A stretch of 64,000 bases of DNA from Acidobacteriota bacterium (GTDB lineage: Bacteria > Acidobacteriota > Terriglobia > Acidiferrales > UBA7541), in contig QHYZ01000046.1 in assembly GCA_003225295.1 (NCBI GenBank), forward strand, positions 124,001 to 188,000, in the 5' to 3' direction. A program made the translations under genes and the position numbers. This document shows positions 24,805 to 25,460 of the stretch, in pieces. The notes under the pieces are model-generated. The model saw only the letters and a list, made by a program, of their open reading frames with translations, did not search any database and was not told where the DNA came from. Numbering within the stretch: position 1 is the first letter of the stretch; each line of letters opens with the position of its first letter.

Positions 24805-25266
24805 CTAGCTCGGGGAGACGCGTTTGAGGACCTCAGCGGCGTGGCCTTTGGCTTTGACCAGGGGCCAGATCACTTCGATTTTGCCGGTTTTGCCGATCAG
24901 GAAGGAGCTGCGCACGATACCCATGAAGGTGCGGCCCATGAATTGTTTTTTCTGCCACGCGCCGAACTTTTGGATGGTTTTGTGGCGGGGATCGCTGAGC
25001 AGGGGGAAATTGAGATTTTGCTTGGCCTTGAACGAGGCTTGAGCTTTGACGGGGTCGGCGCTCATGCCCAGAACGGCCACGCCGAGCTTGTCGAAATCTT
25101 TTTTTGCGTCACGAAACTCGGACGCCTCGATGGCTCAACCTGAAGTATTTGCTTTGGGAAAGAAAAAGAGGAGGACGCGCTGGCCGACGAAGTCTTGGAG
25201 CGCGATTTCCTTGCCTTCGTCGGATTGGAGCCGGAAGCCGGGGGCTTGGGAACCTACTTTAAGCAT
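24805..25266 (-). CDS. bcp: Bcp-type peroxiredoxin with in-frame TGA at the peroxidatic position (candidate selenoprotein)
   Basis: One frame runs from ATG 25266 to TAG 24805, 153 codons, the usual Bcp length. It is broken only by TGA at 25137-25135. The N-terminal part has QAPGFRLQSDEGKEIAL, then FFFPKANTSG directly before TGA. After the TGA come AIEASEFRDAKKDF, VAVLGMSADP, LLSDP, FMGRTFMGIVRSSFLI. In Bcp the motif PxxxTxxC puts the peroxidatic cysteine exactly at the TGA, and the catalytic arginine in GIVRSSF is present. No cysteine is encoded anywhere, so a resolving cysteine is absent too. This fits selenocysteine insertion, supported by a hairpin just downstream. The alternative is a TGC/TGT to TGA mutation or read error. 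The SelA, SelB, SelC and SelD genes would have to be elsewhere. Confidence 0.82.
25106..25125 (-). promoter_or_regulatory. Candidate bacterial SECIS hairpin
   Basis: Nine bases after the TGA, the RNA reads GCGUC-CGA-GUU-UCG-U-GACGC. It forms an eight-pair stem with one bulged U on the 3' side and a GUU loop, placed 18-20 nucleotides after the UGA. Bacterial SECIS elements sit immediately downstream of the UGA and carry a GU in the apical loop, and a bulged U is known to matter for SelB binding in E. coli formate dehydrogenase. The fit was made by eye. Confidence 0.68.
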
Positions 25267-25460
25267 TCAAGTTCCTCTTTCTAAAGCACCGCACCCGGCT
25301 AGGTGGGGGCGCGGCGGGCGCCCTGCACCGTTCGTCGGGGTACCTCGGGCATGAAGTATACGTTGCGATTGTCGGCGATCCTCATCGGTTCGCCTCAAAA
25401 TGACACCCTCAGGTTTAGCCTCGGGCTAGATCCGAAAATCCTTGAGAAAACTTAGCGCCT

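Follow-up and report, generated by a model that had tools for sequence, protein, structure and literature searches.

A peroxiredoxin (Prx) that contains selenocysteine (Sec), of the type COG1225/PF00578 with a TxxU motif, was reportedly described from Eubacterium acidaminophilum. As far as the accessible parts of these sources go, COG1225 (Bcp) is listed as a selenoprotein with TxxU (PMC9312934), the motif of Sec peroxiredoxins is given as PxxxTxxU (PMC13188914), and 91 Prx selenoproteins were counted in 78 organisms (PMC5029168). Sec peroxiredoxins of the Bcp group are also described in the available text of a further source, which for 2006 gives four selenoproteins of three families in Acidobacteria (PMC1794560). 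According to the accessible part of a 2026 review, changes from Sec to Cys seldom occur, with FdhA and SelD as the main documented cases (PMC13188914).

The locus studied here resembles the known Sec Prx (TxxU) in that Sec would replace the peroxidatic Cys of PxxxTxxU, and differs from it in that the protein is free of Cys, has Ser at +5 and belongs to a large clade of Acidobacteriota. Sec peroxiredoxins of the Bcp type are thus already known, while a replicated, coupled exchange of Sec and Cys and a hairpin with two registers were not found in the literature searched; in the open-licence literature searched, no listed title or abstract dealt with Sec-Bcp of Acidobacteriota or with a paired exchange of Sec and resolving Cys in peroxiredoxins.

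A probable Sec-type bcp gene and the Sec machinery of its genome

The window (the whole stretch of DNA that was analysed, 64,000 nucleotides) holds on its minus strand a frame of 153 residues and a stop codon that is interrupted once, at residue 44, by an in-frame TGA. The following features of this frame are referred to below:

24805..25266, minus strand: gene for a predicted Bcp/PrxQ-type peroxiredoxin selenoprotein of 153 residues, the TGA being read as Sec, based on the frame, family profiles and an AlphaFold2 model
25135..25137, minus strand: TGA codon 44, putative Sec at the peroxidatic position; 59 of the 83 distinct genes compared within the order share this TGA
25144..25158, minus strand: codons 37-41, Pro37 to Thr41 of the PxxxTxxU motif, with P37 and T41 invariant in 34 aligned proteins
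25120..25122, minus strand: codon 49, TCC (Ser), which lies in the hairpin stem and corresponds to the resolving Cys at +5 in Bcp, from sequence comparison
24910..24912, minus strand: codon 119, encoding the active-site Arg of peroxiredoxins, unchanged across 34 aligned proteins
25273..25278, minus strand: AGAGGA as a possible ribosome binding site, 6 bases upstream of the ATG, read from the sequence

The motif at residue 44 reads PKANTSGU, and the TGA occupies the peroxidatic Cys site of PxxxTxxC. In the available text of PMC5302317 the motif P(K/A/R)(D/A)xTxG precedes the catalytic residue in Bcp/PrxQ, and PKANTSG followed by TGA conforms to it. The translated frame matched the AhpC-TSA profile with 119.6 bits (cut-off 26) and, over residues 2-150, the family model NF006960 (PRK09437, thioredoxin-dependent thiol peroxidase) with 162.4 bits (cut-off 140), which places it in the Bcp/PrxQ family; the NCBIfam PrxU model NF040737 gave 45.4 bits against a cut-off of 270. 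An AlphaFold2 model, in which the TGA was read as Cys, adopted the thioredoxin fold of the Prx type with a mean pLDDT of 96.6. Its best structure match was 9a4d_B, an integrative model titled ACKA-BCP (Z 27.3, rmsd 1.2, 153 aligned residues), and Xylella PrxQ 3ixr matched with Z 26.3 and rmsd 1.1 over 151 residues. Pro37, Thr41, position 44 and Arg119, the last of which we take to be catalytic in the peroxiredoxin active site, were invariant among the 34 aligned proteins.

In many Bcps the resolving Cys is usually found at +5 after the peroxidatic Cys. Residue 49 of the window protein, at this place, is Ser, and the 153-codon frame contains zero Cys codons, which separates the protein from atypical 2-Cys Bcps with a resolving Cys at +5 or elsewhere. 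With UGA/Sec instead of the peroxidatic Cys, it represents the Sec form of the family and not a Cys peroxiredoxin, and, as in bacterial selenoproteins, the in-frame UGA stands at a conserved redox Cys position. An ORF listing with table 11 shows only the 91-residue tail (24805-25080), so the gene is likely misannotated. A sequence-only reading of this DNA had described a 153-codon Bcp-like minus-strand frame with one TGA on the peroxidatic position and no cysteine, of which standard calling would report only the 91-residue tail; the frame together with the NF006960 and AhpC-TSA matches, the codon count and the table-11 listing bear this out, and its further proposal that the enzyme would use Sec alone, without an internal resolving thiol, agrees with Ser at +5 and the lack of Cys. 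The hairpin and the linked change at codon 49 described below were not part of that reading. Very probably, the gene encodes a Sec peroxidase of the Bcp/PrxQ peroxiredoxin family that would be reduced by an outside thiol; peroxidase activity with a thiol donor is suggested by the family and the active-site residues.

The source genome, from a soil member of the Acidobacteriota (G000; 8.1 Mb in 385 contigs, 96% complete), contains selA (574 bits), selB (359 bits) and selD (345 bits), all above the cut-offs, as well as a tRNA-Sec (selC, 68.7 bits) with TCA anticodon, which ARAGORN calls tRNA-SeC (tca). All of selA, selB, selC and selD, which the sequence-only reading had proposed to search for in the same genome, are thus present. 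The selD gene (L014, G000:C197:16214-17179) itself carries an in-frame TGA, in KAAGU, and is a selenoprotein candidate in its own right. Two further candidates in this genome, both with a TGA at a likely redox position, are a Prx-like gene with TGA in FAFTGGU (L029, G000:C147:74751-75122), and a Prx-like domain with WUPFC in a 472-residue frame (L030, G000:C77:86209-86532), for which the relatives comparison gave no blastp match. L029 and two other Prx-type genes of this genome (L027, L028) were dropped before the bcp tree and the later counts.

Among the genomes with a TGA gene (n=56, that of L173 not counted), a selA match was found in 54 and selB above the cut-off in 53. G316 and G370 had no selA match, and G323, G353 and G375 no selB above the cut-off; most of these five are incomplete or fragmented assemblies. 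Genomes with a Cys gene had selA in 20 of 24 cases and selB above the cut-off in 17 of 24, the four without selA all belonging to genus g178. At G387:C20, G367:C113 and G382:C233 (genera g177/g178) the selA matches span only about profile positions 160-454 and adjoin selB matches, an odd or split sel locus.

Codon 44 and the hairpin after the TGA

A scan of genome contigs gave 37 loci. Among the 20 closest (L063-L082, 62-93% identity), codon 44 is TGA in 19 and TGC in L078. Within the order, 85 of 95 genomes produced a match at E 1e-20, some by a weaker paralogue only; 83 of the 111 listed matches, all distinct, were used, and the 28 weakest, most of them of a different Prx type (33-39% identity) and two of them partial, were not taken. 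Codon 44 is TGA in 59 of these 83 genes, one of which (L173) is doubtful, and the remaining 24 are Cys genes, including L180, which lies in the order but outside the family. In the rest of the phylum at least 8 genomes have TGA at codon 44 (200 genomes with a match among 297 searched). TGA-containing relatives in Acidobacteriota, for which a search had been suggested earlier, are therefore many, both in the order and elsewhere in the phylum.

Compared with six relatives, the window gene showed dN/dS values of 0.12-0.20 for codons 1-43 (five pairs; the sixth relative, L063, has no synonymous difference there and hence no value) and 0.10-0.22 for codons 55-151. Eight further pairs gave 0-0.37 and 0.05-0.19, respectively. 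All computable pairs are below 1 on both sides of the TGA, and by this measure both sides evolve as protein.

In bacterial SECIS elements the apical loop usually lies about 16-37 bases after the UGA, with a G near the start of this loop. Shortly after the UGA of the window gene, a SECIS hairpin is predicted by sequence:

25106..25125, minus strand: SECIS-like hairpin GCGUCCGAGUUUCGUGACGC, starting at the tenth base after the TGA, with loop 25115-25117 and bulged base 25111

The consensus of bases 13-32, counted from the T of TGA, is GCGUCCGAGUUUCGYGACGC and folds by itself. Codons 48-51 and 53 of the 59 TGA genes are nearly fixed at synonymous sites (Ala GCG 57/57, Ser TCC 54/54, Glu GAG 58/58, Phe TTT 58/59, Asp GAC 59/59), and the third base of codon 52, which forms the bulge, varies. 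Among the 24 Cys genes the codons at these places are mixed, e.g. GAC in 9 and GAT in 6 for Asp, or TTT in 12 and TTC in 12 for Phe. This synonymous freeze in TGA but not in Cys genes is, judged from codon usage, a SECIS signature. Paired cells amounted to 96.8% in 66 TGA rows (order and other Acidobacteriota) versus 58.7% in 23 family Cys rows, and seven of the 66 TGA rows carry an A-U to G-C double change. The hairpin alignment (A1) held identical 48-base stretches once, and L029, L091, L092, L093 and L095 were left out of it. Against 500 shuffles, cells paired, cells with double change and the covariation score beat all, whereas pairs with double change (324/500) and further pair types (500/500) did not pass; since two of the five measures failed, conservation carries the case for the hairpin more than covariation does. 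The covariation is slight, and the score was nearly equal when the hairpin was slid by -1 (0.054 versus 0.058). An Rfam search of the region returned no SECIS match and one sub-threshold snoRNA-like match.

The five TGA genes of other Acidobacteriota that have Cys49 (TGC) keep the hairpin in a second register, where a G at base 17 pairs with C27, replacing the C17-G28 pair, and the bulge moves. The hairpin thus appears to have two registers, one for Ser49 and one for Cys49, and at the level of base pairing Cys49 seems compatible with it. Codon 43 (25138-25140) is GGT in 54 of 59 TGA genes versus 3 of 24 Cys genes, and the base 5' of the UGA also seems to be under selection.

These data bear on two other accounts of the TGA. 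It might be a nonsense change of TGC/TGT, by base error or in a pseudogene, and one locus would fit this account: the TGA44 of L173 (G376:C343:10608-11054) lies inside a Cys clade, lacks the hairpin and may be spurious, whether by base error, by nonsense change or with the gene out of use. For the window gene, the TGA in 59 of the 83 order genes, dN/dS well below 1 on both sides and the frozen hairpin codons leave such an origin a negligible probability; a base error in particular is very unlikely because the same TGA occurs in dozens of other assemblies. Scarcely more credible is that the TGA stops translation and that the downstream part is made as a separate protein from GTG 25080. An ORF of 91 residues does exist there, but codons 45-62 precede this start and hold E47, A48 and F51, conserved at 90% or more, and neither half alone has Pro37, Thr41, position 44 and Arg119, which are jointly invariant.

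Second cysteines and the chromosomal place of bcp

In the order, and position 44 aside, Cys is absent from 30 of the 59 TGA genes, as compared with two of the 24 Cys genes. Cys49 occurs in none of the TGA genes and in six of the Cys genes; Cys68 occurs in 27 and 16, respectively, and two more TGA genes have a Cys elsewhere. The window gene's own genus includes five Cys44 versions, all with Cys49 and none with Cys68. Cys forms lacking a second Cys were found in the family (L162_1 and L177), in three more rows of Acidobacteriota and in one of another phylum. Sec is also not always found without a second thiol, since five Sec rows have Cys49 and 29 of the 59 TGA genes keep another Cys. The former five (L039, L181, L182, L183 and L184, from other Acidobacteriota families) combine TGA44 with Cys49, possibly as a pair forming a selenenylsulfide. 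A second model, that of L138, made for comparing position 44 with Cys68, reached a pLDDT of 97.3, and Cys68 is proposed here as a resolving Cys. In one genome a Cys44/Asn49 Bcp gene stands directly before a TGA44/Ser49/Cys68 one as a tandem pair (L162/L199, G371:C20:55732-56757). An independent-pairs sign test of Sec/Cys against Cys49 (135 rows) gave a null result, with seven pairs on supported branches, about two of them differing in Cys49, and a median p of 0.5. From the distribution of cysteines we infer that Sec makes an internal resolving thiol dispensable and that lineages returning to Cys usually have a second cysteine, which would be Cys49 in the own genus and Cys68 in sister genera.

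The gene gatB adjoins bcp in all 41 loci tested, in TGA and Cys genomes alike. On the other side panC follows in 31 of them; the remaining ten, every one a TGA locus from the own group, showed no panC within the stretch. For the bcp tree, 17 of 135 rows (other phyla and some long branches) were dropped and codons 43-54 masked. The family formed one clade (100/100, 82 rows) in which the Cys rows are nested in several places; a single clade was rejected for all family Cys rows (p 1e-8) and for the Cys rows without Cys49 (p 3e-4), and with bcp alone it was not rejected for the five genus Cys44/Cys49 rows (p-AU 0.12). A tree of the neighbouring genes (GatB+PanC+PanB, 40 of 41 candidate loci) was calculated under the simpler model LG+G4. 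L078 was left out as a copy of L189, L065 and L201 are among rows representing the same organism twice, and in 11 of the 40 rows fewer than half of the columns are filled. On this tree codon 44 changes at least six times. The five genus Cys44/Cys49 rows fall in three places, a placement that rests on the neighbour genes and on bcp sharing their history, and one clade was rejected with p-AU 5.9e-73, although the clade p values are too favourable because the groups were chosen with a tree already in view. L191 is the fully supported sister of L081 (TGA), and L189/L190 of L080/L205 (TGA).

Sec is favoured as the ancestral state of the family by the way the Cys rows are nested and by the common hairpin, although trees do not prove direction. 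With Sec as the older state, three lineages would have changed in place from Sec44/Ser49 to Cys44/Cys49, and the Cys68 lineages would have reached Cys44 with no Cys49. In the genus, the five genomes with Cys44/Cys49 have selA (5/5) and, in four, selB above the cut-off, with G334 just below; as the machinery is largely kept there, its loss does not explain the change.

Alternatively, the link of Sec or Cys44 with Cys49 or Cys68 could stem from shared ancestry and horizontal replacement of bcp, not from repeated exchange in place. Many rows are closely related, and a single Cys/Cys clade of the genus is compatible with the bcp tree (p 0.12), but the neighbour-gene tree, the conserved gatB-bcp-panC order and the two one-clade rejections on bcp itself argue against it; we consider this explanation rather unlikely, if still to be taken seriously. 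Less probable again is that the resolving Cys was lost through RNA and not through chemistry, codon 49 in the SECIS stem demanding TCC so that Ser replaced Cys. The codon is indeed TCC in all 54 Ser rows and its bases are paired in the hairpin, yet the five genes of other Acidobacteriota with TGA44 and TGC at codon 49 still fold.

Taken together, we lean slightly towards the reading that in one family of Acidobacteriota bcp, placed between gatB and panC, went from Sec to Cys several times in place, that the return to Cys in the genus came with a +5 resolving Cys in three of three lineages, and that the hairpin has two registers. This would amount to a replicated natural experiment on Sec making the resolving thiol dispensable.

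Predicted mechanism and relation to known enzymes

Read from the sequence, the enzyme is most likely a one-residue Sec peroxidase. SelB with Sec-tRNA would read the UGA at codon 44, and the selenolate would attack the hydroperoxide and yield a selenenic acid. As the protein has no internal thiol, the selenenic acid would then be reduced by an outside one, bacillithiol and/or thioredoxin. Bacillithiol is a candidate reductant because the bacillithiol synthesis enzyme BshC, which the search for outside reductants covered, is encoded in the genome (290 bits); thioredoxin is another candidate.

It is an old question why enzymes should use Sec instead of Cys. In this case, closely related Sec and Cys forms of a single gene, located at one chromosomal place, can be compared pairwise (for example L080/L205 with L189/L190, L081 with L191), and such pairs allow a test of whether Sec does away with the need for a resolving cysteine. 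The coupled exchange is of more interest than the single gene.

With Cys Bcp/PrxQ proteins (PrxQ of Xanthomonas and Xylella, and others) the window protein shares fold, motif, Arg119 and length, and it differs from them by the putative Sec in place of Cys and by the lack of a resolving Cys. The selenoprotein MsrA of Clostridium oremlandii likewise has one Sec and no Cys and, according to the accessible part of the source, is reduced by an outside redoxin; however, it belongs to another enzyme family with another substrate, and its reductant is glutaredoxin (PMC4479559). For animal Sec GPx, the available text of PMC8614756 makes the case that with Sec the resolving Cys was no longer required and disappeared, and that some lineages later went back to Cys. 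That case concerns another family and animals, whereas in the bacterial one a single gene, at one chromosomal place, exists in Sec and Cys versions.
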